64,000 bases of DNA from Maribacter stanieri. Lineage in GTDB: Bacteria > Bacteroidota > Bacteroidia > Flavobacteriales > Flavobacteriaceae. The notes below the pieces were generated by a model. The model saw only the letters and a list, made by a program, of their open reading frames with translations. It was not told the DNA's origin and searched no databases. Both the position numbers and the translations under genes were made by a program. This document shows, piece by piece, positions 30,195 through 54,803 of this stretch; within the stretch, counting starts at the first letter, position 1; each line of letters starts with the position of its first letter. Where the stretch lies: positions 2,281,856 to 2,345,855 of the forward strand of contig NZ_FOYX01000001.1 in the NCBI RefSeq assembly GCF_900112245.1. Direction: 5' to 3'.

Positions 30195-30285
30195 ATACTC
30201 ATCGGCATAGAATCACCATTCACCGACACTAAATTGCCATTCACCTACAGTTACCATTTTAACAATCATTAATCGTTGACATTTG
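30195..30285 (+). promoter_or_regulatory. Promoter P1: three direct repeats at 21-bp spacing plus weak -7 box
   Basis: Repeats of 13 bases start at 30195 (ATACTCATCGGCA), 30216 (CCATTCACCGACA) and 30237 (CCATTCACCTACA), exactly 21 bp apart. The box GACATTTG starts at 30278, 41 bases after the start of the nearest repeat. The same layout occurs at P2, P3 and P4. A 21-bp period of direct repeats is the known binding geometry of LytTR-type regulators; one is encoded in this operon (36210). There is no -33 TTG, which fits activator dependence. Confidence 0.75.
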
Positions 30286-30305
30286 TAGTATCAAATAAAT
30301 GACCA

Positions 30306-30707
30306 ATGGATATATTATTAATAGAAGACGATTTAATCGAAGTAATGAAGTTGAAACGTACAGTTTCTAAACTTAATTTAAAGCATTCGATTATAGAAGC
30401 AAAAAATGGTGAAGAAGCATTAACCTATTTAAGGTCAGGTGAAAAATTACCAGATATTATTCTATTAGATTTAAATATGCCAAGAATGAATGGTATAGAA
30501 TTTCTTGCTATTTTAAAGGAAGATGAAATACTTCAGTATTTACCAACAGTCATTTTAACCACATCTGAAAATAGAGCAGATCTATTAAAATGTTACCAAG
30601 CTGGTATAGCAGGTTATGTAATTAAGCCTTTAAAATATGAGGATTATGAGTATAAGTTAAATGCTGTTTTAGAGTACTGGAATGTTAATCAATTGGTTAA
30701 AGGCTAA
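30306..30707 (+). CDS. Single-domain response regulator (Rcp1-like)
   Basis: 133 residues, receiver domain only. Acidic pair in IEDD, phosphoacceptor Asp in ILLDLNMPRMNG, Thr/Ser in VILTTSEN and Lys in YVIKPL. The layout with LLKCYQAGIAGYVIKPLKYEDYEYKLNAVLEYW is typical of Rcp1-type receivers, which work in phosphorelays with Hpt proteins or kinases and not by binding DNA. It is the first gene behind promoter P1. Eighty bases and an internal -7 box separate it from the H-NOX gene. Confidence 0.9.
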   Translation: MDILLIEDDLIEVMKLKRTVSKLNLKHSIIEAKNGEEALTYLRSGEKLPDIILLDLNMPRMNGIEFLAILKEDEILQYLPTVILTTSENRADLLKCYQAGIAGYVIKPLKYEDYEYKLNAVLEYWNVNQLVKG

Positions 30708-30757
30708 CAAAAAAGCTCATTTCACAACATTTTCAAGTATATCTGTATTAATTTTCC

Positions 30758-30765
30758 TACGTTTG
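30758..30765 (+). promoter_or_regulatory. Internal -7 box before the H-NOX gene
   Basis: TACGTTTG matches TAnnTTTG, 22 bases before the ATG at 30788. It suggests that the sensor genes also have a promoter independent of P1. Confidence 0.4.
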
Positions 30766-30787
30766 AAAATAAATCAAATATTTTCGA

Positions 30788-31330
30788 ATGAAAGGCATAG
30801 TGTTTACAGAGTTTTTAGAAATGGTCGAATCGGAGTTCGGTTTAGAGACTGTTGATAATATTATTGAAAAATCCAATCTACCATCTGAGGGTATTTATAC
30901 TTCTGTTGCCACCTATGAATTCAATGAAATGGTGGCGTTGATTACCCAATTAAGTAAAGAGGTAGATTTACCCGCCGGAGATTTAATTTATGCCTTCGGT
31001 CTTTACTTGTTTTCAAGTTTAAAGAACGCCCATCCAGAGGTTATTCAAAATTATAAATCACCAATAGGTTTACTATATTCTATAGAAGACCATATACATG
31101 TACACGTAAAAAAGCTATATCCAGAAGCTGAGTTACCTACATTTAAAATTCTTGAAAAAACAGATACTTCAATTTCAATGATATATTCTTCATCTAGAGG
31201 TTTGTATAGATTGGCCCATGGGTTAATTGAGAAAGCATTTGAACATTTTAATGGTAAGGCAGATATAAGCTATGAACTTCTTAAGGAAGATGGTACGGAA
31301 GTGAAATTTGATGTAGTACAAAATGGATAA
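30788..31330 (+). CDS. H-NOX (HNOB) haem domain sensor protein
   Basis: A 180-residue stand-alone H-NOX. The start MKGIVFTEFLEMVESEFG and the strand/helix order match the family. The proximal haem ligand is His104 (H-V-H-V-K-K-L-Y-P, aligned with the H-x-x-L-x-x-I-Y-P of soluble guanylate cyclase), and the haem-propionate motif YxSxR is Y134-S-S136-S-R138. Bacterial H-NOX proteins bind nitric oxide and inhibit or control a histidine kinase encoded next to them. Here the gene overlaps the next kinase gene by 8 bases, so the two are almost certainly partners. No distal-pocket Tyr is assigned, so O2 binding cannot be judged. Confidence 0.92.
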   Translation: MKGIVFTEFLEMVESEFGLETVDNIIEKSNLPSEGIYTSVATYEFNEMVALITQLSKEVDLPAGDLIYAFGLYLFSSLKNAHPEVIQNYKSPIGLLYSIEDHIHVHVKKLYPEAELPTFKILEKTDTSISMIYSSSRGLYRLAHGLIEKAFEHFNGKADISYELLKEDGTEVKFDVVQNG

Positions 31331-33686
31331 TAAAGAAGTTGTTCTCTTAAAAAAAGCCCTTGAAAGGCAAAAAAAGGCACGTAAACAGGCTGAGAGGATT
31401 TTAGAGGATAAATCTAAAGAACTTTATGATGTTACTCACCATTTAAGAGAATCAAATCAAAAGCTTGAGAATTTACTGAGTGAAAAAACCTCAGAGCTTG
31501 ATGGTATTTTTATAAATATTATAGATCCTTATGTTGTTATGGATCTTCAGTTCAATGTAATAAACATGAACAGGTCGGCCAAAGAGTTTTTGGGCTTTGA
31601 CCATTTAGAAAAAGTAGTAAACCTTTCTCAATTTATACATCCAGATTTTTTAGCGTATACCCAGGAGTCTATGAGCTCTATGATGGAGGTTGGCAGTTTA
31701 AAGAATTATCGAGCAAAGATTATTCTTGACGGTGGTGTTGAAAAATGGATTCAAATAAATGCTAGTCTTGTTTATGATAAAAACCAAAGACCTATTGCCG
31801 CACAGGGTATAATTAGAGATATTTCACAAGAAACAGAAGTAAAAAGACTTGTTGCAGAGCAAAAGGCTCAATTAGATATCATTGTAGAAAACTCTCCTCT
31901 TGGTATTGTTCTTTCTGTTGATGGCGAAATTCTAAAGACTAATAATACGTTTCTAGAAATGTTGGGATATAATGAGAAGGAACTTAAAAATGTTTCTTTC
32001 AAGTCCATATCTCAACCTGAAAAAGTTAAGGGAGGTATATATTCTATTGATGAAATGTGTGCTGGCAAACTTGATAAGTTTACAGAAGTATGGAGATTCA
32101 ATAAAAAAGATGGTACTACTATTATGGGCAAGACTATGATGTCCGCTATACATGATGACCATAGAAAAACCGATTATCAAGTAGCAATTATAGAAGATAT
32201 TTCTCATCAATTAGAAGCTGATAGAAAACTTAAGGCATCTGAAAATAGATTATCAGCATTAATTTCTAATTTACAAACTGGGGTGCTCTTAGAAGATGAG
32301 AATGGTAAAGTGGCATTGACCAACCAAATGTTCTGTAATATTTTCAATATTAAAAATACTCCTAAAAATCTTATTGGAGTTGACTGTGAAGAATCTGAAA
32401 AGGAGAATAAAAAGCTCTTTAAAAATCCCGATAACTTTGTAACTAGAATTGAAGAAATTCTAGCAAAGAAAGAACCTGTATTGGCAGATGAGTTAGAAAT
32501 GTTAGATGGTAGGGTCTTGGCAAGAGATTTTATTCCTATTGATAATGATGGCGACTATAAAGGTCACTTATGGGCTTACCATGATATTACAATAAGCAAG
32601 AATTACAGAAAAAATTTAGAAGCCCAACGAGAAAAATATGGTAGTATAATAGCTAACATGAATTTAGGTTTGGTTGAGGTTGATAATGACGATATTATAC
32701 AGATGGTCAACCAAAGTTTTTGTAATATGAGCGGCTATGAAAGCAAATATCTTATAGGTAAAGTAGCTTCTAAAGTTGTTAGATTCAAAGATGGTGGCAT
32801 AATTGAAAAGAAGAATAAAAATAGACTCGGCGGTATATCAGAATCTTATGAAGTAGAAGTCGTAGATAAAAATGATAATGTAAAACATTGGCTAATTAGT
32901 GGCGCACCTAGATATGATGATACAGGTTCGGTAATTGGTTCTATAGGCATACATTTAGATATAACTGATCAAAAGGAGTTAGAGCTTCAAAAAGAAAGAT
33001 TACTTAAAGATTTAGAAAATAGTAATCAAGGTCTACAAGAGTATGCGCATATAGTTTCTCATGACCTTAAATCACCATTAAGAAGTATTAGTGCATTGGC
33101 TACTTGGTTAAGCGATGATTACAAAGATGTATTAGATGAAAGTGGGCGACAAAATCTTGATCTCATGCAAGAGAAAGTTGCATCTATGGATAAATTAATT
33201 CACGGTATTCTAGAATATTCAACTGCCAATAGCTCAGCTCTAGATGATTCTAAAGTAAATTTAAATGAAGTCATTACAGATATAGGTGAAACTATATATA
33301 TACCTGAACACGTAAAATTGGTGATACCTAAACCACTACCAACTATTATGGCAGATAGAATTAAGGTTCATCAAGTTTTTCAAAATATTATTGGTAATGC
33401 CGTGGTACATATAGAAAGGGAAGAAGGACTTGTAGAAGTTCTCTGTAAAGATGATGGAGAATTCTGGCAGTTTACTATTAGCGATAATGGAGTAGGTATA
33501 CCAGAAGAATATCATAAAAAGATTTTTGATATATTTCAATCTATCGGAAATAATGAAAGATCTACAGGTATAGGACTTTCTATAGTGAAGAAAATTGTTG
33601 ATCGCTACCAAGGTAACGTGTGGGTAGATAGTGCAGTAGGGGAAGGTACCCAATTTCATTTTACTATAAAGAAGCACCATAATTAA
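31323..33686 (+). CDS. Multi-PAS soluble histidine kinase, H-NOX partner
   Basis: 787 residues, no membrane segment. An N-terminal coiled coil (LLKKALERQKKARKQAERILEDKSKEL, then LRESNQKLENLLSEKTSELDGIF) matches the start of kinases paired with H-NOX. Four PAS domains follow at about residues 55-180, 180-305, 305-430 and 430-555. The HisKA box is HIVSHDLKSPLRSISAL, with an HATPase domain at the C-terminus (N-box QNIIGNAVVHI, G1 ISDNGVGIP, G2 GIGLSIVKKIV). There is no C-terminal receiver. It probably feeds the Hpt protein at 35889 and the receivers in the region. Confidence 0.92.
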   Translation: MDNKEVVLLKKALERQKKARKQAERILEDKSKELYDVTHHLRESNQKLENLLSEKTSELDGIFINIIDPYVVMDLQFNVINMNRSAKEFLGFDHLEKVVNLSQFIHPDFLAYTQESMSSMMEVGSLKNYRAKIILDGGVEKWIQINASLVYDKNQRPIAAQGIIRDISQETEVKRLVAEQKAQLDIIVENSPLGIVLSVDGEILKTNNTFLEMLGYNEKELKNVSFKSISQPEKVKGGIYSIDEMCAGKLDKFTEVWRFNKKDGTTIMGKTMMSAIHDDHRKTDYQVAIIEDISHQLEADRKLKASENRLSALISNLQTGVLLEDENGKVALTNQMFCNIFNIKNTPKNLIGVDCEESEKENKKLFKNPDNFVTRIEEILAKKEPVLADELEMLDGRVLARDFIPIDNDGDYKGHLWAYHDITISKNYRKNLEAQREKYGSIIANMNLGLVEVDNDDIIQMVNQSFCNMSGYESKYLIGKVASKVVRFKDGGIIEKKNKNRLGGISESYEVEVVDKNDNVKHWLISGAPRYDDTGSVIGSIGIHLDITDQKELELQKERLLKDLENSNQGLQEYAHIVSHDLKSPLRSISALATWLSDDYKDVLDESGRQNLDLMQEKVASMDKLIHGILEYSTANSSALDDSKVNLNEVITDIGETIYIPEHVKLVIPKPLPTIMADRIKVHQVFQNIIGNAVVHIEREEGLVEVLCKDDGEFWQFTISDNGVGIPEEYHKKIFDIFQSIGNNERSTGIGLSIVKKIVDRYQGNVWVDSAVGEGTQFHFTIKKHHN

Positions 33687-33697
33687 TATATCTATAA

Positions 33698-34828
33698 ATG
33701 AAAATAGTTCAGGCGATAAAAGAACCTAACAAACCTTTTAAACTCAATAATTCTGTTGCGTTAAAAGAGCCGTTGGTATTAGTTTTTGGTAATAGATATT
33801 TATTGGAAAGTGATCAAATTTATGCAGAGGTTAGAGAAATGTTTCCCAACGGACATATTGTATTTGGTACTACATCAGGTGAGATTATAGATAATACCGT
33901 TCTTGATAACTGTGTTGTATTAACTGCAATTGAATTTGAAAAAAGTTCAATTTTAGTGAAAAGAAGTAATGTTGACGATTTTAATAACGATGATGAAAAA
34001 TTAGGGAAGAGCCTTATGGCCGAATTCCCAAGAGAAAATTTAAGGCACCTATTCGTTATATCTGAAGGTAGTACTGTAAATGGTAGTGCACTTATTGCAG
34101 GAATTGAACATTTAGGAAACACCAGTTTTGGACTTTCTGGCGGACTTTGTGGTGATGATGATCGTTTTGAGCGAACATTGGCTTCCTATAACGAGAACCC
34201 TAAAGAAGGTGAAATTATAGCTATTGGTTTTTATGGCGAAACCTTAGAAATTACTAGTTCTAATTATGGTGGGTGGACAACTTTTGGACCCGAACGTATA
34301 ATAACCAAATCTAATGGTAATGTACTTTATGAGTTAGATGGTAAACCGGCATTAGATTTATATAAAACCTATTTAGGTGAAAAAGCAAAAGAGTTGCCTA
34401 AGTCAGCTTTACTATATCCTTTGAGCGTAAAAGCAACACAAGATTCAGAAGCATTGGTGCGTACTATTCTTAATATAGATGAGGTAGAGAATACTATGAC
34501 ACTTGCAGGCGATGTTCCAGAAGGGGCTAGAGTGCAATTAATGATGTCATCTGTAGATGATATTGTAAATGGCGCTTTTCATGCCGCAGAATTAGCAATA
34601 AAGGATAGAAAGAACCCTCCAGAGCTAGCATTATTAATAAGTTGTATTGGTAGAAAACTGGTAATGGATCAAAGAACGGAAGAAGAAATAGAAGAGGTAA
34701 AAGCCGTAATAGGTGATGATACCGTAATTGGCGGGTTTTATTCCTATGGAGAAATGGCTCCGTTTAGTGGTCAAGATAGTTGTAAACTACATAACCAGAC
34801 CATGACCTTAACTTTATTTAGCGAATAA
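33698..34828 (+). CDS. FIST-domain sensor protein, NosP-like
   Basis: 376 residues with FIST_N (GHIVFGTTSGEI, then FVISEGSTVNGSALIAGIEHLGN, then SFGLSGGLCGDDDRF) and FIST_C (LLISCIGRKLVMDQRTEEEIEEVKAVIGDD, ending GFYSYGEMAPF and CKLHNQTMTLTL). FIST proteins sense small molecules; a subgroup, NosP, binds haem and nitric oxide and controls a neighbouring histidine kinase. The gene directly precedes a kinase (stop and start overlap by one base) and lies in one operon with an H-NOX, which makes a NosP role attractive. Haem binding by this protein is inference. Confidence 0.9.
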   Translation: MKIVQAIKEPNKPFKLNNSVALKEPLVLVFGNRYLLESDQIYAEVREMFPNGHIVFGTTSGEIIDNTVLDNCVVLTAIEFEKSSILVKRSNVDDFNNDDEKLGKSLMAEFPRENLRHLFVISEGSTVNGSALIAGIEHLGNTSFGLSGGLCGDDDRFERTLASYNENPKEGEIIAIGFYGETLEITSSNYGGWTTFGPERIITKSNGNVLYELDGKPALDLYKTYLGEKAKELPKSALLYPLSVKATQDSEALVRTILNIDEVENTMTLAGDVPEGARVQLMMSSVDDIVNGAFHAAELAIKDRKNPPELALLISCIGRKLVMDQRTEEEIEEVKAVIGDDTVIGGFYSYGEMAPFSGQDSCKLHNQTMTLTLFSE

Positions 34829-35892
34829 TGCATTCACTATTAAAAAGACAGATTCGAAAGTACTTACCTAATGATCTAGAATCAAATCCGGAAATGGATA
34901 AGTTTTTAGAGGCAATAGAAAAATCGTATGAAAATTACGATGATAAATTTTCTATGCTCCATAGGGCTTCGACAATTAGCTCTGATGAACTTTTTGATGC
35001 AAATAAGAAATTGCAGAAAGAAGCAGAGCAGCAAAAGAATATTTTAAATTCATTAGAAAACGCCATTCGTAGTTTAACAGACAATTTAAACGAGGAGCAA
35101 TTATTTGGTCAGAATATACAAGATGAGTTTAATGCAGAACATTTGGCGGGTTACATAAGTAATTTAGCTTCTCAGTTTTCTCAGATGACAGTTGAAAAAG
35201 ATAAACTCCTAATCAGCTTAGAAAACCAAAATGAGTCTTTAAATAATTATGCGCAAATGGTATCGCATGATTTAAAATCACCTATTAGAAACATTAATGC
35301 TCTAATGAGTTGGATCATACAAGATGAGAAAGACAAATTCTCTGACACCAGTAAAGAGAACTGCTCGTTAATATCTCAAAACCTGTCAAAGATGGATAAG
35401 CTTATTTCGGGTATACTAAGCCATGCTACATTAGGTGAAACAGAAGAGTTTAAGGTTTCGTTTAATTTAAAAGATAGTTTAAAAGATATAGAACGCACAA
35501 TTTATGTTCCAGATAATATAATATTTGAGTATCCTAAAGAGTTGCCACAGATGGTTTTTGAAAAATCACGTTTAGAGCAATTGTTCATGAACTTGTTTAC
35601 AAATGCTATTACGGCGACAGAAAATGTAAAAAAAGGAATAATTAAAATTGGCTACGAACCAGATGAAGTGTATTGGAAATTTAGTGTTTCTGATAATGGT
35701 AAAGGAATTGCGGTTAAACATCAAAAAGGAATTTTTGAAATGTTTAAAAAATTAGAAACAACAAATAATGCAACCGGAATAGGACTTGCAATTGTTAAGA
35801 AAATTGCAGTTCTTTATGAAGGTGATGTATGGTTGGAGTCAGAAGAAAATGTAGGTACTACATTTTTTATAACTTTAAAAAAGAATTCATGA
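34828..35892 (+). CDS. Soluble histidine kinase, FIST partner
   Basis: 354 residues. The N-terminal part is a coiled coil (LFDANKKLQKEAEQQKNILNSLENAIRSL, similar to the NahK-type start) without a recognisable PAS or GAF domain, so the signal must arrive through a partner, probably the FIST protein. The HisKA box is QMVSHDLKSPIRNINALMSWI and the HATPase domain has NLFTNAITA, VSDNGKGI and GIGLAIVKKIA. Its catalytic half resembles that of the H-NOX partner kinase (both read SHDLKSP), so the two could share the downstream Hpt protein. Confidence 0.9.
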   Translation: MHSLLKRQIRKYLPNDLESNPEMDKFLEAIEKSYENYDDKFSMLHRASTISSDELFDANKKLQKEAEQQKNILNSLENAIRSLTDNLNEEQLFGQNIQDEFNAEHLAGYISNLASQFSQMTVEKDKLLISLENQNESLNNYAQMVSHDLKSPIRNINALMSWIIQDEKDKFSDTSKENCSLISQNLSKMDKLISGILSHATLGETEEFKVSFNLKDSLKDIERTIYVPDNIIFEYPKELPQMVFEKSRLEQLFMNLFTNAITATENVKKGIIKIGYEPDEVYWKFSVSDNGKGIAVKHQKGIFEMFKKLETTNNATGIGLAIVKKIAVLYEGDVWLESEENVGTTFFITLKKNS

Positions 35893-36209
35893 TAGATCAA
35901 CCTAACCTTAATTATGTAAATGAACTTGCCGGTGACGATGTTGAATTTAGAGGTCAATTCATCGATATAATTAAGAACGAGTTCCCCCTAGAAAAAGAAG
36001 AGTATTTTGGTCATGTGTCTAATGCTAGAGTAAAAGAAACAGCCGAAATAGTACATAAATTAAAACACAAATTCAATATTCTGGGCATGGAAAATTCCTA
36101 TAAGTTGGCTGTTGTCTACGAAATGGAATTATTAGAAGGTAAGCACGATAGCCAATCTAAATTCAATGAGATTTTAGAGACTATTGAAGAATATATTAAA
36201 ACCATATAA
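35889..36209 (+). CDS. Hpt (histidine phosphotransfer) protein
   Basis: 106 residues from the ATG at 35889, which overlaps the kinase stop in an ATGA; a longer frame from 35829 would lie wholly inside the kinase gene. The all-helical body carries the Hpt phosphohistidine motif as VHKLKHKFNILGM, where the family norm is HxLKG: the Gly after Lys is replaced by His. It is expected to collect phosphate from one or both kinases and pass it to receivers, including the LytTR regulator next to it and possibly the receiver-glycosyltransferases. Confidence 0.85.
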   Translation: MIDQPNLNYVNELAGDDVEFRGQFIDIIKNEFPLEKEEYFGHVSNARVKETAEIVHKLKHKFNILGMENSYKLAVVYEMELLEGKHDSQSKFNEILETIEEYIKTI

Positions 36210-36920
36210 ATGAACTGTATTATTATTGATGATGAAGCTATGGCAAGGGCAATTGTTAGACAATTGTGTTCTAAAATACCAGAGCTTGATGTCATTGAAG
36301 AATTTGATAATGCCATATCTGCAATTAAATTTTTAAATCAACAGGATATAGATGTCATATTTTTAGATATTCATATGCCTGGTTTTAGTGGCGTTGATTT
36401 TGTACAGACACTTAAGGATCCGCCAAAAATTGTTTTAACTACTTCGGATACAAATTTTGCTATTGCAGCCTATGAATACGAATGTATTGTTGATTATTTG
36501 GTAAAACCTATTACCCAAGAAAGGTTTGAAAAGAGCATTGCCAAAATTTCAAGTATTTCTAGCCAAAAGCCACAAGCTAAAATAGATTCTAAACAAGATG
36601 CTGTAGAGGGTGAAGATTTGTATATTAATATTGATAGAAGATTAATAAAGCTTAAGCTCCAAGATATTTTAGTGATAGAAGCTAAGGGTGATTATATTGA
36701 TGTTAAAACAGAAAAAGAGGAGTATAGAGTGCATACGACCTTAAAGAAAATTAAGGAAAAGCTACCTGAGAAACTATTTCTACAGATACACCGGTCATAT
36801 TTAATAAATTTTACTAAAATTATAGATATTGAGGATAACAGCGTTTTGATTGCGAAGAATGTAGTTCCTATAAGCCGATCTAATCGTCCAGAATTAATGA
36901 GACGATTAAACCTACTATAG
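36210..36920 (+). CDS. LytTR-family response regulator
   Basis: 236 residues. The receiver has IIDDEAMA, phosphoacceptor Asp in VIFLDIHMPGFSGVDFV, Thr in KIVLTTSDT and Lys in DYLVKPI. The C-terminal LytTR DNA-binding domain is clear: LYINIDRRLIKLKLQDILVIEAKGDYIDVKTEKEEYRVHTTLKKIKEKL, then FLQIHRSYLINFTKI. LytTR proteins bind tandem direct repeats spaced about two helical turns, and repeats of this kind sit at promoters P1-P4. It is therefore the best candidate for the regulator of the polysaccharide genes, and probably of its own operon. It is adjacent to the Hpt gene with no gap. Confidence 0.93.
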   Translation: MNCIIIDDEAMARAIVRQLCSKIPELDVIEEFDNAISAIKFLNQQDIDVIFLDIHMPGFSGVDFVQTLKDPPKIVLTTSDTNFAIAAYEYECIVDYLVKPITQERFEKSIAKISSISSQKPQAKIDSKQDAVEGEDLYINIDRRLIKLKLQDILVIEAKGDYIDVKTEKEEYRVHTTLKKIKEKLPEKLFLQIHRSYLINFTKIIDIEDNSVLIAKNVVPISRSNRPELMRRLNLL

Positions 36921-39404: not shown

Positions 39405-41465
39405 TTAATCTAGGTTTAAACTTTTATAAAAAAGTGGTTTCTTTAGAAATAACCATTTCGCTTTTACACCTATTTCGGTAAACTCGAATCCGGCTGCTGT
39501 TGCAGAGGCAATATTACTGTACTTACCATAAATATTTAAGCTAAAACGTTTAGAAAATTGACGTTGCACAGAAGCTTCAGCCCTAAAAATGGCAGTTTTA
39601 TCATCATCCTCTACTTGCTGTATACCAGTTGCAGCACTAGCCATGTAAGTTGTTTTTTCTGAGATGTTACCACGTATGTCTGCAAATATTTCAACTGCTT
39701 TATACACTTCTGGACTAAAATATATGGTAGGTAGTTGATCTTTAAAAGTAATATACTGGAAGTTTACACCCATTTTCAACGCAGGTTTACGCAGCACATT
39801 ATAATATAAAGAGGTAAATAATAAATTTCTAACGTTATCATCACTCTGTTGGGTGTGCATAAGTTGTGTATACCAACCAAAATTCACATTTGTACCAAGG
39901 TTATAATTAAGTCCGTAATGGTTTTGTACAATTTCTCGTTCTATTAATTCAGCATTAAAACTTTGTACCTCTCGTTGGTACCCAAGGGTTAAGTTTTGCA
40001 ATTTAAAGGGTTGCATATCTAACTTAATATCTAAAACTGGTTGTGTATATGCTTCGTCTAAAAACCTAGAGTTGTTTAAACCGATAACCGTTTTTAAAAC
40101 AGTTTTAGGAAATAATTTGTATTGTAATCCGGCCAATAATACATGAGAGGTTGCTTTATTATCGGTTACACTATTTTCTGTATTTCGAAAAAAGTAAGAA
40201 ACCGTAGTTCTAAATTTTGTACTAAAAGGTACATCAACGGTAGTGTTGGTGAAAAATGCCACATTATTACCGTTGTCAAAAGTATAGGCTGCATGTTCCT
40301 CAATTGTAGGGGTATGCATTAAATTCAGTTTTTCTATAAAACCTTTGGCATCCTTCTGATTTTTATAAAATTTTAAAGTTGAGTTTGCCATATTATAGGC
40401 AGGAATAATTCTGTCAGAAGCGAATAATGCATTTGCCTTACCTAAATTTCCATCAAAAGAAGCACTGTCGTTTACTAATATTCTATCATAACTTTCAACG
40501 CTAGACTTGGCATCTCCTGTGTATAAACCTAATGTAGCTTTTAAAGCTAAAATCCAATTTTTATTTGGGTTATGTGTCTCTAGGCTATCAATCTTATTCT
40601 TTGCAGAAATAAATTTTCTATTCCATATTAATGCCTGTACATAACGATCGTAAGTACTAGCTGTCAATGCCTCATCATCAATTTTTGCAACTTTTCTAAT
40701 AGCGCTTTTAGATATTTCTAAAGCTTCTTTATCATTTTCATCTATATGTTCTGCTAGCGCAATACCATTTAATGCGGTAATAGAATCTTTGGGTGTAGTT
40801 GCATATCTAATATAGATGTCCTTTGCCTTATCGGCTTCTTTAACAATAAGGTATAAATTAGCCAAGTTGATCAAAACATCTTTATCTTCTGGGAAATCCT
40901 CAAATATTTTCTTTAATGTCTGTTCACCTTTACCATATTGTTGGTTGTTTACAAATTCGTTGGCATAACCTAATCTCATAAACTTTCTAGAGATTTTTGC
41001 ACTCGTGTTTTCTGGTTGTAATTGAATAGCTTTTTCAACCCAGCTTAACGCTAATTTGTATTCTTTTAGATTACTTAAGGTGTTGGCGTACCCTAAAACT
41101 GCACCAAATTTTGTTGGATATTTTTCTACTAGATCTGCATATAATGGTTTGGCTTGCTCATATTCTTTAGCCCATAGGTATGACTCGTTATAATTTATTA
41201 ATATCTCAAAATCACCTGGATACTCTTTTAAAAGCTCAGAAAATAAGTTAGTAGCTTTTTGCGGTTCTCCACTTAAGCCAACTGCACGTCCAAAACAAAG
41301 TTTTGCTGTTTTATTATCAGGGTCGGTTTTAAGGTATTCTAGAAAAAAAAGTTCAGCTTCTTGAAACTCTCCTTTTTCTAATAAACCAAAGCCTTTGGTC
41401 ATATCAGATTGTGCCTTTAATAATGAAGTGGTGAATAAAAAAAGGAATATTACTTTGCGAATCAT
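39405..41465 (-). CDS. TPR plus beta-barrel outer-membrane protein, polysaccharide export type
   Basis: 686 residues. Signal peptide (MIRKVIFLFLFTTSLLKAQ), then TPR repeats over about residues 20-380 (for example GFGLLEKGEFQEAELFFLEYLKTDPDNKTAKLCFGRA, LGYANTLSNLKEYKLALSWVEKAIQLQPEN), then a C-terminal region of about 280 residues made of alternating aromatic strands (FRTTVSYFFRNTENS, QYKLFPKTVLKTVIGLNNS, LNYNLGTNVNFGWYTQLM) that looks like a 14-16 strand porin. This is the plan of PelB, BcsC and PgaA, which carry nascent exopolysaccharide across the outer membrane. It is divergent from the flippase and shares the 225-base gap containing P2. Confidence 0.82.
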   Translation of the reverse strand: MIRKVIFLFLFTTSLLKAQSDMTKGFGLLEKGEFQEAELFFLEYLKTDPDNKTAKLCFGRAVGLSGEPQKATNLFSELLKEYPGDFEILINYNESYLWAKEYEQAKPLYADLVEKYPTKFGAVLGYANTLSNLKEYKLALSWVEKAIQLQPENTSAKISRKFMRLGYANEFVNNQQYGKGEQTLKKIFEDFPEDKDVLINLANLYLIVKEADKAKDIYIRYATTPKDSITALNGIALAEHIDENDKEALEISKSAIRKVAKIDDEALTASTYDRYVQALIWNRKFISAKNKIDSLETHNPNKNWILALKATLGLYTGDAKSSVESYDRILVNDSASFDGNLGKANALFASDRIIPAYNMANSTLKFYKNQKDAKGFIEKLNLMHTPTIEEHAAYTFDNGNNVAFFTNTTVDVPFSTKFRTTVSYFFRNTENSVTDNKATSHVLLAGLQYKLFPKTVLKTVIGLNNSRFLDEAYTQPVLDIKLDMQPFKLQNLTLGYQREVQSFNAELIEREIVQNHYGLNYNLGTNVNFGWYTQLMHTQQSDDNVRNLLFTSLYYNVLRKPALKMGVNFQYITFKDQLPTIYFSPEVYKAVEIFADIRGNISEKTTYMASAATGIQQVEDDDKTAIFRAEASVQRQFSKRFSLNIYGKYSNIASATAAGFEFTEIGVKAKWLFLKKPLFYKSLNLD

Positions 41466-41578: not shown

Positions 41579-41648
41579 CCATTCATCTATAGTAAATGGT
41601 CACCTACCTAAATGCCTATTAAATTAACGCTAGCCTTCATGATATTTG
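41579..41648 (+). promoter_or_regulatory. Promoter P2: direct repeats at 21-bp spacing plus weak -7 box
   Basis: Repeats CCATTCATCTATA (41579) and TCACCTACCTAAA (41600) are 21 bp apart, and GATATTTG starts at 41641, again 41 bases after the start of the nearest repeat. A third upstream unit is not evident here. It drives the first flippase gene and lies in the gap shared with the divergent outer-membrane protein gene. Confidence 0.72.
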
Positions 41649-43058: not shown

Positions 43059-43149
43059 TAGCTTACCGAATGTTTAATTCCATTCATCTACAGTAAATCT
43101 TCATCCACCTAAAATAGCCTAAAAAATCTTCTTCTTAGTTGGATATTTG
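43059..43149 (+). promoter_or_regulatory. Promoter P3: three direct repeats at 21-bp spacing plus weak -7 box
   Basis: Repeats TAGCTTACCGAAT (43059), CCATTCATCTACA (43080) and TCATCCACCTAAA (43101) are 21 bp apart, and GATATTTG starts at 43142, 41 bases after the start of the nearest repeat. It stands before glycosyltransferase copy 1. Confidence 0.75.
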
Positions 43150-44674: not shown

Positions 44675-45814
44675 ATGAAAATACTAACTATTGATGATCA
44701 ACAACTGATTTTATTATCGGTTGAAAAGCGACTTACTGAATTAGGTTATGATGTAATGACAGCCAATTCGGGTAAAAAAGGTATAGAAATATATGATGCT
44801 TTTGAGCCAGATTTGGTTCTTGTAGATATAAATATGCCAGATATGTCTGGTCTTGATGTGGTTAAACACATTAAAGAGATTAATGATAAAAATACCCCTG
44901 TTTTAATAATGTCAGGTAATACTGATGAGACAATAATTATGGATGGCTTTACTTTGGGCATCGATGATTATATGAAAAAACCTGTGAGCTTATCTGAAAT
45001 GGCAGCTCGTATTAAAAGGTTAATTGGCGCTCCTGTCGTTCAAGGAAGTGAAACAGTTTCTGGTAATGCTAGAATGCTCCAAAAAAACTGTGTTGGTGTT
45101 GTTATACCTTGTTATAACGAAGAAGAACGCCTTTTAGGTAAAGAGTTTAGAGATTTTGCACATAATAATCTAGGGTATCATCTATGTTTTGTAAACGATG
45201 GTAGTACAGATAAAACTTTAGAAGTTCTTGAAGAACTGAAAAAAGGAAACGAAAGCAATATTAGTATCTATAATTGCGAGAAAAATGGTGGTAAGGCCGA
45301 AGCTGTTCGCCAAGGTATGCTACACATGGCAAAAGATAGTCAACTAGACTATATAGGCTTTTTAGATGCCGATTTATCTACTGATTTTAGAGATTTTGAT
45401 GATTTAGTGGAAACATTGGATCAATCTGATTTTAAAATAGTTAGTGGTTCTAGAATGAGTAGAATGGGAGCGGATATCACTAAAGAGTCTGCCCGAAAGA
45501 TTATTAGTATGACTATTAATCTTATTATTAGAACCATTTTAAGAATGCCTTTTAATGATACACAATGTGGTGCAAAAGTTATGGACCGCTCAGTAGTTCC
45601 GTTACTTTTTGAAAAAAAATTCATAACGAAGTGGCTTTTTGATGTGGAGATGTTCATAAGGATGAGAAAGCATTATGGTAAAGTCGAAGCCAAAAAACTT
45701 ATTTGTGAGCAACCGTTGAAACGTTGGATTCATGCAGATGGATCAAAACTATCAATGAAAGACTCTGTAAAGATTGTTGGTCAATTGGCAAAAATCGCCT
45801 ATGTATACAGATAA
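44675..45814 (+). CDS. Receiver domain fused to family-2 glycosyltransferase, copy 1
   Basis: 379 residues in two domains. Residues 1-120 are a receiver: Asp7-Asp8, phosphoacceptor Asp51 (LVDINMPDMSG), Ser80 (IMSGNTDE) and Lys102 (YMKKPVS). From about residue 138 to the end is a GT-A enzyme of the dolichyl-phosphate glucosyl/mannosyltransferase type: VIPCYNEEERL, FVNDGSTDKTLEVL, KNGGKAEAVRQG, the metal site D231-A-D233 (FLDADLST) and NDTQCGAKVM. There is no DNA-binding domain. The plain reading is a glycosyltransferase whose activity is set by phosphorylation, perhaps loading undecaprenyl phosphate. It starts an own unit after a terminator and is followed by flippase copy 2 and GT4 copy 2. 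Confidence 0.9.
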   Translation: MKILTIDDQQLILLSVEKRLTELGYDVMTANSGKKGIEIYDAFEPDLVLVDINMPDMSGLDVVKHIKEINDKNTPVLIMSGNTDETIIMDGFTLGIDDYMKKPVSLSEMAARIKRLIGAPVVQGSETVSGNARMLQKNCVGVVIPCYNEEERLLGKEFRDFAHNNLGYHLCFVNDGSTDKTLEVLEELKKGNESNISIYNCEKNGGKAEAVRQGMLHMAKDSQLDYIGFLDADLSTDFRDFDDLVETLDQSDFKIVSGSRMSRMGADITKESARKIISMTINLIIRTILRMPFNDTQCGAKVMDRSVVPLLFEKKFITKWLFDVEMFIRMRKHYGKVEAKKLICEQPLKRWIHADGSKLSMKDSVKIVGQLAKIAYVYR

Positions 45815-45853: not shown

Positions 45854-47128
45854 ATGTCGGCAATAAGATTAGCAATTAAGCGAATTTCCCCTAAACAATT
45901 GTTTATGGGTAGTGCGTTGCTGGTAAATGGTGGTAATTATTTATATAATTTACTTTTAGGTAGACTTTTAGGTCCCGAAGCTTTTGCAGATGCGGCATTA
46001 TTGGTAACCTTATTATTGGTGCTATCTTTTGTAGGCATGACATTTCAATTAGCGACTACAAAATTTGCGGTGCTATTTTCGGATGAAACTTGGGTGGCAT
46101 TTAAGAATACCATGTATAGATATGCATTGGTATTTGGTGTCTTTACTGGTATTCTCGTACTCCTTTTTTCAAAAAATTTACAAGCGCTATTTAATACGCA
46201 GAATCATTATATGTTTATGATTTTTGCTGTCGCTATTCCCCTATACTTTGTTATGAGCGTTAATAGAGGAAGATTTCAGGGAAAGCATGATTTTAGAAAA
46301 TTAGCGGGCACATACCAAACGGAAATGTGGAGTAGGTTACTGCTTACTTTTGCGTTATTATTATTGGTGCCCTTTGAACCGGGTGTTTTAATTGCTGTAG
46401 GTATCGCTGTGTCGTTTATTTTCGGTCTTTTTCCTTCAGATTTTAAGGGAGTTCAACTATTTTCTAAAAGTAAGTTGGCTTCTGTAGATTTAAGACAAGT
46501 CTGGATTTTTATTGGCCTAACTGCTGGTTATGAACTTACACAGATTATCATTAACAATAGTGATATTCTATTGGTAAAGCATTATTTCAATGACAAGGAT
46601 GCGGGTTTATATTCATCTCTAGCATTAATTGGTAGAGTAGTGTATTTTGTAGCTTGGATGTTTGTAATGCTACTTATGCCAACTGTAATACAAAAACAAA
46701 AAGATGGCGAGCCAACGGCTCCGGTACTTTTTAAGTATGTGTTCTTTATTGGTGGCTTATCGACCTTTATAGTTTTTGTATGCTTTCTGTTTCCGAATTT
46801 GATCATTACGTTAATGTTCGGTGATGCCTATTTGTCTATTGCACATTTACTTTGGAAATATGCTTTGGCAACATCACTATTTGCAGTCTCTAATATTTTC
46901 GCATATTACTTTTTGTCATTGAATCAATATTCGCCTGTAATATTATCCGGTTTATTAGGGTTTTCTCAGGTGGCACTCATCATGCTTTATCACGATAATC
47001 TTGAAACCGTAGTTCACATGCAAATTATTGCCATGGTCATACTATTGGTGGCACAGTTACTATTTTTCATCATCAAGAATAAGAAAGATTCATCAGCCTT
47101 AAAAAAACAAAATAACCCTGTATACTAA
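45854..47128 (+). CDS. MATE-like polysaccharide flippase, copy 2
   Basis: 424 residues with about twelve membrane segments, clearly paralogous to copy 1 (41691): both share the GGNYLYNL, GRLLGP, FQLAT and NRGR segments and FVMLLxPxVxQKQKDGE. It is co-transcribed with the receiver-glycosyltransferase (40-base gap containing a C-rich tract, 45823-45843) and GT4 copy 2 (12-base gap). It probably exports the same or a related lipid-linked sugar chain. The C-terminus ends in a Lys/Asn tail absent in copy 1. Confidence 0.85.
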   Translation: MSAIRLAIKRISPKQLFMGSALLVNGGNYLYNLLLGRLLGPEAFADAALLVTLLLVLSFVGMTFQLATTKFAVLFSDETWVAFKNTMYRYALVFGVFTGILVLLFSKNLQALFNTQNHYMFMIFAVAIPLYFVMSVNRGRFQGKHDFRKLAGTYQTEMWSRLLLTFALLLLVPFEPGVLIAVGIAVSFIFGLFPSDFKGVQLFSKSKLASVDLRQVWIFIGLTAGYELTQIIINNSDILLVKHYFNDKDAGLYSSLALIGRVVYFVAWMFVMLLMPTVIQKQKDGEPTAPVLFKYVFFIGGLSTFIVFVCFLFPNLIITLMFGDAYLSIAHLLWKYALATSLFAVSNIFAYYFLSLNQYSPVILSGLLGFSQVALIMLYHDNLETVVHMQIIAMVILLVAQLLFFIIKNKKDSSALKKQNNPVY

Positions 47129-47140: not shown

Positions 47141-48370
47141 ATGAAATTAGCAATCGTAACCGCCTATCCACCTAGTAAAGTAACTTTAACAGAGTACGGT
47201 TATTACTTGGTAAAACACTTTAGACTTCAAGAAGAAGTGACCGAATTAATTTTGATTACCGATCGAACCGATGAACCTAAAGATTTAAACTTTGAAGAAA
47301 ACGGTTGTAAGATTACGGTAAAGGAATGTTGGAGCTTTAACAGCAACAGTAATATCTTTAGTATTAGCAAGACAATTTCGCAAACAAAGCCAGATGCCGT
47401 ATTATTCAATCTTCAGTTTTTAAAATTCGGAGATAAGAAAATACCGGCGGCACTAGGGCTAATGCTTCCATTTATTTGCAAGTCTAAGGGTATACCAACT
47501 ATATCACTTTTACATAATATTCTAGAACAGGTTGATTTAGAAAATGCAGGTTTTACTAAAAACAAGCTATTACAGAGTATCTATAATTTAATTGGTACAA
47601 CGTTGACCAAATTTGTATTGGCGTCAAATATTCTTGCCGTTACTATAAGTAAATATGTGACAACGCTAGAAGATAAATATAAGGTTAAGAATGTAGCATT
47701 AATTCCGCATGGCGCTTTTGAAACTCCACCAGAGCCAGACTTTAAACTTCCGGCTGGTCCAAAAAAGGTGATGGCTTTCGGAAAATTTGGTACGTATAAA
47801 AAAGTAGAAATACTTATTGAAGCGGTTGAAGAAATTAGAGCAAGAACCAATGAAGATATAGAAATTGTAATTGCAGGTACAGATAGTCCAAATACGCCAG
47901 GTTACTTAGAAGAAATGAAACAAAAATATAGCCATGTACCTCAAATTAGATACACAGGTTATGTAGCAGAAGAAGATGTGCCTAAAATATTTGGAGAAAG
48001 CGCAGTTACTGTTTTTCCTTATACTTCTACTACGGGCAGTTCTGGTGTTTTGCACCAAGCTGGTAGCTATGGTAACGCTGTTGCCTTACCAGATTTAGGA
48101 GATCTTAGTGTTTTAGTAAAAGAGGAAGGCTATACCGGAGAGTTCTTTGATGCTCACAGTACTTCGTCTTTGGCAGATGCTATTGAAAAAATTATTACAG
48201 ACGATGCCTATAGAATACAATTGGCAAAACAAAATTACAAAGCAGCTTGCTCTTTACCAATGTCTACAATTACGCAAATGTATATAGATTACTTTAAGGC
48301 AATCCAGAAATCAAAAGAAACTGGTTTCAATATTGATATATCAACTATGGAGAAGAAATTGGTTCATTAA
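47141..48370 (+). CDS. Family 4-type glycosyltransferase, copy 2
   Basis: 409 residues, the same length as copy 1 (43188), with near-identical domains: KLAIVTAYPPSKVTLTEYGY at the start, MAFGKFGTYKKVEILIEAVEEI and YTSTTGSSGVLHQAGSYGNAVALPDLG. GT-B fold, nucleotide-sugar dependent. It closes the REC-GT2/flippase/GT4 unit and is followed by a strong terminator. The two GT4 copies differ mainly in the middle (residues 120-170) and at the C-terminus, so they could use different acceptors or donors. Confidence 0.88.
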   Translation: MKLAIVTAYPPSKVTLTEYGYYLVKHFRLQEEVTELILITDRTDEPKDLNFEENGCKITVKECWSFNSNSNIFSISKTISQTKPDAVLFNLQFLKFGDKKIPAALGLMLPFICKSKGIPTISLLHNILEQVDLENAGFTKNKLLQSIYNLIGTTLTKFVLASNILAVTISKYVTTLEDKYKVKNVALIPHGAFETPPEPDFKLPAGPKKVMAFGKFGTYKKVEILIEAVEEIRARTNEDIEIVIAGTDSPNTPGYLEEMKQKYSHVPQIRYTGYVAEEDVPKIFGESAVTVFPYTSTTGSSGVLHQAGSYGNAVALPDLGDLSVLVKEEGYTGEFFDAHSTSSLADAIEKIITDDAYRIQLAKQNYKAACSLPMSTITQMYIDYFKAIQKSKETGFNIDISTMEKKLVH

Positions 48371-48390
48371 GAATTGATATGGTTAGTATG

Positions 48391-51255: not shown

Positions 51256-51256
51256 A

Positions 51257-54200
51257 TTATTTAGGATTACCTATATAACTGTTTATTTCAAATTTTATAA
51301 ACTCATAACCTTTTCCTTTAAAAGGTTGTGTTTGTTTCTTCTCATGTATAACCTTTCTATTGGGGAATATTTTATCAGCTATCGCTTTGTTTGGTGAGCC
51401 ATTAACGAAACAATTTTCTAGACTACTGCTAATGATTTCTAGACTATCTAAGTCTAAAGGTTTATAATTAAAAAATTGCTTTCGCTGTATACGAACACCT
51501 TCGGTTACAAATTTATGATCTACCCAAAGTAGTTGGCTATTGGCATCGTAATAAGAAATTATTAATTGAGGTATGGTAACCTCTTGTACCCCAGAGTTAA
51601 ATAAAACACCATTAAAACCCTGTTCGTTATATTCCAAATCTTGTAAAGCTACATGTTTGTATAAATCTGTATTAGCAGTGTTGCCAGCAGATTGCAAGTT
51701 GAACTTTGTTGGTTGCTCCTCAAAACTTACCGGTGTAAATTGATCTGGATCAAATGTTGGTGGCAAGGTATCTTTCGTAGAGGACCAAGCTATACCTTCA
51801 AAGTTTATTTTAAATGTGGTGGTTTCCTTAGGCATTAATTTATGCTTAATTTGATGCTTGGCATTGTAATTGGCCAGCTCTTTGTTATTGTCATTATACA
51901 ACGTTGCTTTTATAACAATATCTGCCGGTGTATTATCCACATTTTGAAGCTCACCAATAATACTGTACTGCCCTTTGTATTTCACCAATTTAGCCGATAG
52001 AATTTCTAAAACGGGTTGCTTTAAAACATCTTCGTGATAGGTCTCTTGGGTAGTAATTTTTCTTCTGCCGTGGTTATAATAGGTTGTGCTATTAGCCGTA
52101 AAAAGCTGATCTGGCGGAATATCGTTATCAACTTTTGAAGATTTTAGATACCACTTATTTTTCCTTTTTATAAGCTCGTGATAGTCATTATTAAATACGT
52201 TTTCTAGCGGAGTAATCCATCGAGTGGCTACTTTTGCTTTTGCGCTATTTTCAGTTTCATCATAAATTTCAATTCCTAATGAATCTAGTTTTGCATACGA
52301 ACTTAAAATACCATCAGTAACCGAAACCTCTAGCATATACTGTGCTATATCTATATTTTCTTCTGGGTCTAGATATGAATGAGCTCTAGAGAATTCCTTA
52401 AAATCCAATGCATCATAATAAGATTCCACCACATTGTTTGGAGATAGTTGCGTTACATTTTTTACATAAAAAATAAACATACCGTATCCCATGCATATAA
52501 GGATACCTAATGCCCACCAATGAGAGAAGGTTAAAAGCTTAGAAGGGAACTTTTTGTACGGTAATTCTAATTTCATGAACGAATGTTCAGGAACTTTTTT
52601 AGACTTTAATAACCGTATCCAAATCATTTGAATATTTACAAAAATGGCTATTAATACCGTAAGCAATGGTATTACGCCCCACATAATTTTCATGATGGTG
52701 GGTACATCTTGCTTAGGCATAATTTGGGGTATGGGAGCCACATTTAATTTCTCCCAAACCATAATGCCATTTTCTAATTGTTGTAATCTTTGCCAACCAC
52801 AATAATAAAGTATGGGGTCATAGAATTTATCATTGGAGAAAATGTACTTTAAATTATATTTTTCTGGTACGGTTAAAAACTGCTGCAATGAACCAATACC
52901 TTCTACACCTCTAAATTTGGAGTTTTCTATGCGTTCTATGGCTCTTGTGGTAAGTTCGGGTAATCTACGTGCAGAGTGATAATTTCCATCAACTGTCATT
53001 GCCCCAGTTTGCGCAGAAAGCCAAGCCATTTGATCACCAAAACCCAAGGGAAGATAACGCCAAGAATCATGAGAATCTGCTCCTAAAAAGTTAACTATGG
53101 GTAGCATTTTTATTTTTGCAGGTTGAGAGGGTCTAAAATATCCTAAGGTCATGGTAAAGAGAACCATAAACAGCATTCCTCCGGCAATTAATCCGCCTAA
53201 TACCCTATGATATACTCCTCCGAATTTTGTTTGTATTAAGGTTTTTAAATCACCTTCTACCATTCTGTAGGCAAATTCAGCAAATATGGGAAGTGCCATA
53301 ATGGTAGCCCATAATGTAAATCTATCTAAGGTTAGGATATTAAAAGCCATTTCACCTAACATTAAACGCGGAATAGGGGTAGTGCCACCAGTTCCTAATA
53401 TGGTTAATAGTGCAAAAGATAAACCGAAGAACACATATCTTTTACTAAAATATCTGTAAAAGAAATAGGGTATGATAAACAGAAATACTCCCCACGGAAT
53501 TATAAAAAATACGAGCCCAGATGAAGTTATTTCCAAGAAATTATCCCGAGATCCATGAGGTATGGCAACTTGGGTAATAGGGTTTCTTTTTGAGTTGTAC
53601 CAATAAGGAAAAATACAGAATATTAATAAAAATATTGCCGTACCACCAAATTTGGCAATTCGCCAAAAGTGCTGAAGGGTAGTAGCCCAAAATACTTTAA
53701 ATGTAAGCGCTTTATATGATGCTACTTTTTCTCTAGCTGCATCCATAACTGCCATACCCATTAATGGAGCTATAAAAAATACCATTCCAAATAGGGGAGT
53801 AACATGATGAGATGTAACCGTTACCGCTAACATAGTTGCCGATGTAATGAAATATCTAGTTTTACCTGTTTTGATATACAGGTATATTTCTGTCATGGCA
53901 TGAAGTAATATAGATAATGCCGAAATACTGGGTAACTGCCCAAAAATATGTAGTGTTTCTACAAACGTGGATGAAAAAACGGCCATTACAGCACCGTAAC
54001 CTGCTATTCTACGACTACCAGTCATTAATAGGGTAAACCTATAAGCGCCTGTTATAAACAATACAATGGCAATTAATGCAACTGTATACATTCCAAATTT
54101 TAGACCACCTATGTAAGAAAGTATGCCAATGAGTTGATGCACTAATGGCGGATAAGATTGTACCGTAAAACCTGTGTACCATCTATATTCCCATGGATCA

Positions 54201-54346
54201 AACCAACTATTGGCATAATGGTCGGCGAAAAATAAATGGATTAATGCGTCATAGGTTGATTCTAACGTAAAGAATATAGCAGAACCATGGAAAGCTAGCC
54301 CTACAATTAAAGCTAATATTAAGAGGGTGTTGGTTTTTTTTTCCAA
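51257..54346 (-). CDS. Large GT-C-like integral membrane protein with soluble C-terminal domains
   Basis: 1029 residues. About ten to thirteen membrane segments lie in the first 580 residues. The first periplasmic loop has the Asp-rich pattern of GT-C glycosyltransferases (STYDALIHLFFADHYANSWFDPWEYRWYTGFTVQSYPPL), similar to membrane proteins annotated as 6-pyruvoyl-tetrahydropterin synthase-related. After a further span near residue 615 comes a soluble tail: an NTF2-like region (NVVESYYDALDFKEFSRAHSYLDP) and a FxLYD-like beta domain (GQYSIIGELQNVDNTPADIVIKATLYNDNN). It could polymerise or modify the polysaccharide from a lipid-linked donor. It heads the operon with the lipoprotein and glycosidase. 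Confidence 0.72.
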   Translation of the reverse strand: MEKKTNTLLILALIVGLAFHGSAIFFTLESTYDALIHLFFADHYANSWFDPWEYRWYTGFTVQSYPPLVHQLIGILSYIGGLKFGMYTVALIAIVLFITGAYRFTLLMTGSRRIAGYGAVMAVFSSTFVETLHIFGQLPSISALSILLHAMTEIYLYIKTGKTRYFITSATMLAVTVTSHHVTPLFGMVFFIAPLMGMAVMDAAREKVASYKALTFKVFWATTLQHFWRIAKFGGTAIFLLIFCIFPYWYNSKRNPITQVAIPHGSRDNFLEITSSGLVFFIIPWGVFLFIIPYFFYRYFSKRYVFFGLSFALLTILGTGGTTPIPRLMLGEMAFNILTLDRFTLWATIMALPIFAEFAYRMVEGDLKTLIQTKFGGVYHRVLGGLIAGGMLFMVLFTMTLGYFRPSQPAKIKMLPIVNFLGADSHDSWRYLPLGFGDQMAWLSAQTGAMTVDGNYHSARRLPELTTRAIERIENSKFRGVEGIGSLQQFLTVPEKYNLKYIFSNDKFYDPILYYCGWQRLQQLENGIMVWEKLNVAPIPQIMPKQDVPTIMKIMWGVIPLLTVLIAIFVNIQMIWIRLLKSKKVPEHSFMKLELPYKKFPSKLLTFSHWWALGILICMGYGMFIFYVKNVTQLSPNNVVESYYDALDFKEFSRAHSYLDPEENIDIAQYMLEVSVTDGILSSYAKLDSLGIEIYDETENSAKAKVATRWITPLENVFNNDYHELIKRKNKWYLKSSKVDNDIPPDQLFTANSTTYYNHGRRKITTQETYHEDVLKQPVLEILSAKLVKYKGQYSIIGELQNVDNTPADIVIKATLYNDNNKELANYNAKHQIKHKLMPKETTTFKINFEGIAWSSTKDTLPPTFDPDQFTPVSFEEQPTKFNLQSAGNTANTDLYKHVALQDLEYNEQGFNGVLFNSGVQEVTIPQLIISYYDANSQLLWVDHKFVTEGVRIQRKQFFNYKPLDLDSLEIISSSLENCFVNGSPNKAIADKIFPNRKVIHEKKQTQPFKGKGYEFIKFEINSYIGNPK

Positions 54347-54803
54347 AGTTTATATTAGAATCAAATTCTACCTAAAGGTATTAAATATATGAGATGGAGA
54401 TTACAATTAAAAGCGAACGTTTAATATTTTAATAATAGAATACCTACAATACCGCGAGCTGTAATTTTGAAATCTTCAAATAGTTTATGTCAAATCTTTT
54501 AAAAAGTAAAAGTTTTCAAAATATATACTGTCTTAATAATCAAATTATAAAGGTCAATAGAAATGAAAAGAGGTTGGTATAAGCAAGTCTCCATTTTTAT
54601 ATGAATTTATTTTTGTAAGAAAATATATCGATACAAAGATATGCTTATTGTTTATTTTCTAGGCAATGAGCCACCGAACTAATAAAACCATTCGTCTACA
54701 GAAAAACGTTAGTCATCTTTTCGGGTCCAAAATCAACGTATCTGAAAAGTACTTTTACGGCATAACTATATAAAGTAACCAAAAACTAACTAAAATCTTA
54801 CCT
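54347..54803. other. 457-base divergent intergenic region
   Basis: A very AT-rich region between the giant membrane gene (leftward) and receiver-glycosyltransferase copy 2 (rightward). It contains P4 (54667-54757) for the rightward gene, a stray TAATTTTG at 54462-54469, and an AGAATTTG-like box (54369-54362, leftward) just before the membrane gene. No gene of plausible length is present. Confidence 0.6.
54667..54757 (+). promoter_or_regulatory. Promoter P4: three direct repeats at 21-bp spacing plus -7 box
   Basis: Repeats TGAGCCACCGAAC (54667), CCATTCGTCTACA (54688) and TTAGTCATCTTTT (54709) are 21 bp apart, and TACTTTTA starts at 54750, again 41 bases after the start of the nearest repeat. 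It is the most degenerate of the four repeat sets but has the best TA in its -7 box. It stands before receiver-glycosyltransferase copy 2. Confidence 0.65.

Follow-up and report, generated by a model that had tools for sequence, protein, structure and literature searches.

What reads the repeated sequence units shared by four promoters of the flavobacterium Maribacter stanieri, and what do these promoters control? In a 64,000-nt stretch of this genome (NCBI RefSeq assembly GCF_900112245.1, contig NZ_FOYX01000001.1, positions 2,281,856 to 2,345,855; hereafter the window), a preliminary description had pointed to four promoters, P1 to P4, each with 13-bp units repeated at a 21-bp step and a −7-like box at a fixed distance, and had proposed that they are bound by a LytTR response regulator encoded behind P1. 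We identify in the same operon a gene for a haem nitric oxide (NO)-binding protein of the H-NOX family. We find the ladder of units to be conserved in relatives and tied to orthologues of that regulator, and we hold it to be likely that P1 to P4 and four flanking sites, P5 to P8, form one LytTR-activated, autoactivated regulon under a gas-sensing H-NOX relay, with extracellular matrix as its output.

A conserved ladder of fixed geometry linked to LytTR genes

Direct reading of the sequence found all four ladders where they had been placed (Table 1), with the 21-bp unit step exact in P1, P2, P3 and P4 and the claimed 41-bp distance from the nearer unit to the box exact in all four promoters; the box begins 28 bp downstream of the second unit's end. 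The count of 'two or three units' per promoter stood in part: two are clear, save that the second unit of P4 is weak, and the third units (starting at 30195, 43059 and 54667), that of P4 included, are weak throughout. In the aligned family profile of relatives the third unit is also only weak, none of its columns exceeding roughly 0.5 bit of information. Bacteroidota sigma-A promoters combine a −7 TAnnTTTG with a −33 TTG. The ladder promoters have neither of these in full: the commonest letters of the box were GATATTTG, and the share with a TTG near −33, already reported as missing, never exceeded 6% across 14 offsets.

The 13-mer alone was unremarkable in the window, with 7 matches at up to two mismatches against 3.9 expected and 5 of 100 shuffles reaching 7; the ladder, rather than the lone 13-mer, carries the signal. 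A pattern requiring both units, the second being fixed, was too strict and gave zero matches. A 99-column matrix, trained on 139 non-redundant sites from loci not titled Maribacter (not wholly independent, since these sites came from a matrix seeded with M. stanieri units and some loci from metagenome-assembled genomes may be close to Maribacter), scored P1 at 66.2, P2 at 48.5, P3 at 64.3 and P4 at 36.8, compared with 3.2 for the runner-up in the window and a maximum of 9.1 over 60 first-order simulated 64-kb sequences. Our first model, of 83 columns and built from seven M. stanieri sites, returned from the whole genome those seven training sites at E ≤ 4.5e-14, namely P1 to P4 plus three copies 7.7–9.0 kb before the window, and the next hit at 1.5e-3. 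Exact matches to CCATTCRYCNAYAGT numbered five in the 4.46-Mb genome, all inside one 52-kb stretch. Ladder sites are clustered genome-wide, and not scattered at random as the preliminary description's own alternative would have it.

Conservation was assessed in 80 loci (the best 80 of 568 relatives), fetched with the LytTR protein (P0001) together with flanks of up to 10 kb and showing 65–92% identity in the best segment. At 14 bits, a matrix of seven M. stanieri units gave 263 sense hits in these loci against 5 antisense hits, and 4 and 4 hits in two control readings. When 159 other offsets from the anchoring unit alone were scored for a second unit, the highest values fell at +21 and −21; in the profile of 206 first units columns 63–70 read GATATTTG, that is, 62 bp from the first-unit start. 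In these loci a 99-column matrix at 14 bits yielded 329 sense hits in 74 of the 80 loci, merging into 260 promoters, and zero antisense or control hits; at 6 bits the numbers were 387 sense, 5 antisense and 5 control. One model search covered 78 of the loci (L047 and L067 being left out). Conservation upstream of orthologues, proposed beforehand as a check, was borne out: the ladder was carried by 74 of the 76 first-gene orthologues with 300 nt of upstream sequence. Six loci were ladder-less, among them L047, L067 and L083 on contigs of less than 5.2 kb, and L073, whose contig starts within the first kinase gene and whose assembly holds a site elsewhere at E 6.7e-10; the exceptions L085 and L090 are full-length loci.

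The link to the regulator was surveyed in 149 Flavobacteriaceae genomes using a ladder model, R2 (E ≤ 1e-3), whose 97 training sites came from LytTR loci and which was scanned over whole genomes, not restricted to those loci; LytTR orthologues were called at ≥53% identity, the next best hits having ≤47%. The ladder was found in 66 genomes and the orthologue in 64, with both in 63, the ladder only in 3, LytTR only in 1 and neither in 82 (Fisher p 3.6e-37, kinship uncorrected). LytTR paralogues (E ≤ 1e-40) do occur in 49 of the 85 orthologue-less genomes (113 minus 64). One of the best 150 sites lay in an orthologue-less genome, and 134 of the other 149 were within 50 kb of LytTR. The four disagreements between ladder and LytTR are G045, described below, and three other genomes. 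In G056 a single clear ladder (32.2) follows LytTR, and two further ones are weak, at 14.7 and, before the operon, 13.2; in G091 a ladder precedes the receiver and H-NOX genes on a contig that breaks off some 0.5 kb after H-NOX; and in G127 none of the cluster genes was found at its best ladder hits. In a wider sample of 197 genomes across the class, a few of them from the family, the ladder (E ≤ 1e-4) was found in M. stanieri, plus two weak non-family hits (2.8e-5 and 6.0e-5) in genomes without a LytTR orthologue, and the LytTR search (E ≤ 1e-55) returned M. stanieri, two proteins in G115 (58 and 56%) and one in G257 (44%). The single ladder hit of G115 in the family survey, at 1.4e-4, does not pass the stricter class-wide cut.

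The proposed regulator and rival readings

The earlier assignment of a LytTR response regulator behind P1 agrees with its domain scores (PF00072, 66.9 bits; PF04397, 71.7 bits; both above cut-off), and the protein shows FLQIHRS, matching 6 of 7 positions of the LytTR motif FhRhHRS (PMC4227749). LytTR is the sole DNA-binding domain that Pfam found in the P1 operon. Published LytTR operators comprise two repeats of 9–11 nt with a spacer of 11–13 nt and no common sequence (PMC4847170), a layout that the 21-bp step of the ladder matches. Among the closest known systems are Streptococcus mutans HdrR and BrsR, whose 9-nt repeats with 12 bp between them lie 21 bp apart start to start (for BrsR, ACCACTTAT-12 bp-ACCGCTTAT) just upstream of operon promoters, HdrR giving autoactivation in positive feedback (PMC6193735). 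Staphylococcus aureus AgrA likewise recognises a pair of direct repeats close to promoters whose spacing is suboptimal (PMC4227749), and the site of Escherichia coli YpdB is a direct repeat as well (PMC4847170). The ladder shares with these operators the direct repeats in front of a poor promoter. Unlike those operators, the ladder has a Bacteroidota-type −7 box without −33, the core CCATTCRTCTACAGT, one distance of 41 bp that stays the same across most of the aligned promoters from many genera, at times a weak third unit, and a regulator encoded within an H-NOX kinase operon.

The co-occurrence of ladder and orthologue, together with ladders that stay beside LytTR, leads us to conclude that the locally encoded LytTR protein very probably serves as the activator, acting on a predicted operator of LytTR type. 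The ladder could instead be bound by a different protein whose gene lies elsewhere and which co-regulates this conserved cluster, LytTR being a mere neighbour with other targets. We regard this as improbable. In its favour, LytTR binding is here a prediction, and three small genomes (L083, L085 and L090) keep LytTR without a ladder near it; the LytTR domains of the three are mutually identical and close to that of M. stanieri, and scanning the three whole genomes gave one weak ladder hit, in one of them. Against it stand the operator-like layout of the ladder (PMC4847170), its presence in 63 of the 64 genomes with the orthologue and its absence from 82 of the 85 others, and its behaviour where LytTR and H-NOX lie on different contigs, as in the genomes of L049, L053 and L062 and in G010 and G145 (the coordinates of L062 and G145 are the same). 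In the first three, LytTR has the strongest ladders next to it, G347 (C11) and G348 (C1) each hold one weaker site elsewhere, and the H-NOX contig carries no ladder at E ≤ 0.01; G010 shows the same split, with LytTR-side ladders and H-NOX on the other contig. H-NOX as what the ladder follows was therefore judged less good than LytTR, since the ladders stay by LytTR when H-NOX is on another contig. An H-NOX hit (E ≤ 1e-20) was found in 61 of the 149 genomes and was missing from 6 of the 63 with ladder and LytTR (G004, G044, G055, G099, G107 and G113).

Several further observations, like the three genomes without a ladder near LytTR, weigh against a regulon activated by LytTR and governed by NO. 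The ladder accompanies H-NOX in 59 of 61 genomes, almost as good a co-occurrence as with LytTR, and because the genomes are related the Fisher p overstates their independence. The ladder sites of relatives came from matrices seeded by M. stanieri sites. Of the 149 listed sites, 15 are either more than 50 kb away from LytTR or not on its contig, and in G045 a ladder stands before a decayed operon without LytTR, in which H-NOX has a stop and the FIST gene is shortened. The general LytTR consensus is [TA][AC][CA]GTTN[AG][TG]. First units and the second unit of P1 agree with it in 6 to 9 of its 9 positions; in P2 to P4 the second unit fits poorly, at 3 to 5 of 9. NO sensing in the P1 operon, last, is suggested by protein family and analogy.

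Less probable still is that LytTR binds the ladder and represses, the promoters being blocked until a signal removes it. Nothing speaks for this directly, yet some H-NOX kinases are NO-inhibited (PMC6769237), so that NO might on balance lower the output; the 28-bp gap between the second unit and the −7 box, the weak box without −33, as expected of an activated promoter, and activation by HdrR from the same layout (PMC6193735) argue against it. It is barely credible that the repeats define a separate promoter class, such as the element of an alternative sigma factor, or arose by chance: the lone 13-mer does stand near chance level in the window, but chance was ruled out by genome-wide clustering, by conservation across the family with zero antisense hits at the cut used and by P1–P4 scores far above the simulated maximum, and two copies 21 bp apart with a separate −7 box are unlike a sigma element.

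Sensory operon, target genes and sites outside the window

Table 1. Ladder elements and genes of the window (positions are those of the window).
Feature	Position	Strand	Basis
P1 third unit, weak, ATACTCATCGGCA	30195..30207	+	direct reading; weak in family profile
P1 unit CCATTCACCGACA	30216..30228	+	direct reading
P1 unit CCATTCACCTACA	30237..30249	+	direct reading
P1 −7-like box GACATTTG	30278..30285	+	direct reading; position conserved in family profile
P2 unit CCATTCATCTATA	41579..41591	+	direct reading
P2 unit TCACCTACCTAAA	41600..41612	+	direct reading
P2 −7-like box GATATTTG	41641..41648	+	direct reading
P3 third unit, weak	43059..43071	+	direct reading
P3 unit CCATTCATCTACA	43080..43092	+	direct reading
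P3 unit TCATCCACCTAAA	43101..43113	+	direct reading
P3 −7-like box GATATTTG	43142..43149	+	direct reading
P4 third unit, weak	54667..54679	+	direct reading
P4 unit CCATTCGTCTACA	54688..54700	+	direct reading
P4 second unit, weak, TTAGTCATCTTTT	54709..54721	+	direct reading
P4 −7-like box TACTTTTA	54750..54757	+	direct reading
Single-domain response regulator, first gene behind P1	30306..30707	+	PF00072
H-NOX haem NO-binding family protein	30788..31330	+	PF07700 (HNOB) 7.7e-39
PAS histidine kinase	31323..33686	+	Pfam scan
FIST-domain protein, NosP-like but far below NosP cut-off	33698..34828	+	Pfam, NCBIfam
Histidine kinase	34828..35892	+	Pfam scan
106-aa phosphotransfer-like protein (P0005)	35889..36209	+	HKLKH motif by eye and position only
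LytTR response regulator (P0001), proposed activator	36210..36920	+	PF04397 and PF00072
Polysaccharide flippase behind P2	41691..42938	+	PF13440
Glycosyltransferase (group 1) behind P3	43188..44417	+	Pfam scan
Receiver-GT2 fusion	44675..45814	+	Pfam scan
Paralogue of P2 flippase, without own Pfam hit	45854..47128	+	264/415 residues identical (64%)
Glycosyltransferase, paralogue of 43188	47141..48370	+	314/409 identical (77%)
Receiver-GT2 fusion behind P4, paralogue of 44675	54804..55970	+	280/379 identical (74%)

The sensory operon behind P1 was confirmed, with the addition that its sensor, which the preliminary description had not named as such, belongs to H-NOX. We take a haem histidine and a YxSxR motif to be the hallmark of this family; H102, H104, Y133, S135 and R137, which cover the histidines and the motif, were invariant in 73 of 73 H-NOX relatives, and the best-matching solved chain was 6bde. 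The FIST protein carries FIST and FIST_C domains, and its only NCBIfam hit is NosP, an identity that was rejected at 57.3 bits against a cut-off of 450; P0005 gave no Pfam match to an Hpt domain at E 0.05. The names FIST and phosphotransfer are provisional because of that low NosP score and the absent Hpt match. Of the 80 loci, those with a match at ≥30% identity in the best tblastn segment numbered 78 for the receiver, 73 for H-NOX, 75 for the PAS kinase, 37 for FIST, 77 for the second kinase, 77 for the phosphotransfer-like protein and 80 for LytTR, the kinase counts including cross-hits between paralogues.

P2 to P4 precede polysaccharide genes, P3 in the order glycosyltransferase, receiver-GT2 fusion, second flippase-type protein and second glycosyltransferase. 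The product of 45854 was dropped as an unknown protein when comparison showed it to be a flippase paralogue, and with three paralogous pairs the polysaccharide set looks duplicated within the putative regulon. Of the 80 loci, 60 matched the flippase type, 52 the glycosyltransferase and 15 the receiver-GT2 fusion, paralogue cross-hits included. Ladders of relatives also stand before a STAS protein immediately upstream of the flippase, before hydrophobic peptides of 36–39 amino acids just behind LytTR (for example, L041:10733; 14 loci, by a narrow pattern) and before secreted proteins of about 830 amino acids, of which the one scanned has DUF4114 and a Por secretion tail.

Two side observations concern the P2 region. 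A TPR protein (39405-41465), matched in 69 of the 80 loci, diverges from it, and by eye a GGAAGT element stands just upstream of many relatives' flippase-side ladders, perhaps as the TPR gene's own promoter.

Outside the window, P5 to P8 flank it, three before tandem genes for 76-amino-acid secreted peptides and one before a long open reading frame. The three are 645-bp tandem copies on the minus strand (C9:2272545-2274161; L020:10545-12161), each a ladder plus a near-identical peptide gene, and their box, TACTTTAG, likewise starts 62 bp from the first-unit start. The eighth site, 5.8 kb past the window, scored 30.7 with the 99-column matrix from loci not titled Maribacter and only E 0.69 with the 83-column model; it precedes a frame of at least 2,710 amino acids (C9:2351682 onward; L021:6682-14999), whose many acidic repeats of DxDGDG type make a giant surface protein its probable product. 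Two remote sites lie at C9:241837 (E 3.6e-7), before a gene for a DoxX-like protein, and at C9:1450797 (E 5.5e-8). The latter element (L112:1500-1725; relatives L155-L174) is present in 20 of 36 genus genomes, and its ladder, accompanied by a conserved hairpin (z −1.86 by folding), scores at least 12 in 19 of the 20 loci; a pattern scan of the stretch gave zero terminator-like matches, and so did Rfam. Its reading as a small RNA was dropped because 14 of the 20 loci hold an open reading frame of 36–42 amino acids between ladder and hairpin, which was not found in the aligned stretch of the other 6, M. stanieri included.

A proposed gas-responsive matrix regulon

LytTR operators and H-NOX kinases are both already known kinds. 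Among the matches listed from CC-licensed PMC texts, we found no link between H-NOX and LytTR, no such motif, no such Flavobacteriaceae regulon and no mapped LytTR operator or H-NOX output in that family, in agreement with the earlier description of the regulon as undescribed. In Shewanella and Vibrio fischeri, NO-bound H-NOX inhibits its partner kinase and alters biofilm (PMC6769237). The present operon resembles these relays in that an H-NOX gene adjoins a histidine kinase and that the expected output is surface life; it differs in its predicted output through a LytTR regulator and an operator ladder, rather than c-di-GMP enzymes or LuxO, and in that 37 of the 80 loci also have a FIST gene. 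The FIST protein, in turn, is like NosP NO sensors in its FIST and FIST_C domains beside a kinase, and unlike them in a NosP score far under cut-off.

Co-occurrence, LytTR-linked ladders and operator layout support the regulon joining a sensory operon to polysaccharide genes that the preliminary description had put forward. We infer from the sequences a mechanism in which the 36210 regulator would dimerise head to tail on the two tandem units set 21 bp, or two helical turns, apart, sit just upstream of the missing −33 position and help RNA polymerase to use the weak −7 box (GAnnTTTG); at P1 it would activate its own operon in positive feedback. Because the operon encodes the regulator together with H-NOX, a pair of kinases, a FIST protein and a phosphotransfer-like protein, LytTR phosphorylation, and hence the output, would be expected to be set through a phosphorelay by a gas bound to haem, with NO the likeliest one. 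That output would comprise the making and export of polysaccharide, secreted proteins (giant ones among them) and small peptides, which as a whole reads as extracellular matrix; and since P1 drives the H-NOX kinase relay, the regulon is plausibly gas-responsive. We judge it evenly poised whether the scheme extends, as a widespread NO-gated matrix regulon of marine Flavobacteriaceae, from an H-NOX relay, sometimes with FIST, through LytTR and the 21/41-bp ladder to the operon itself and to polysaccharide, STAS, receiver-GT2, giant secreted and unrecognised tiny proteins.

Flavobacteriaceae are major degraders of algal polysaccharide. For this family, the ladder motif is specific enough for target prediction genome by genome, and it would provide the H-NOX relay with a defined output on the DNA. 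Tiny conserved proteins come into view through it as well, and whether NO controls the flavobacterial matrix becomes directly testable.

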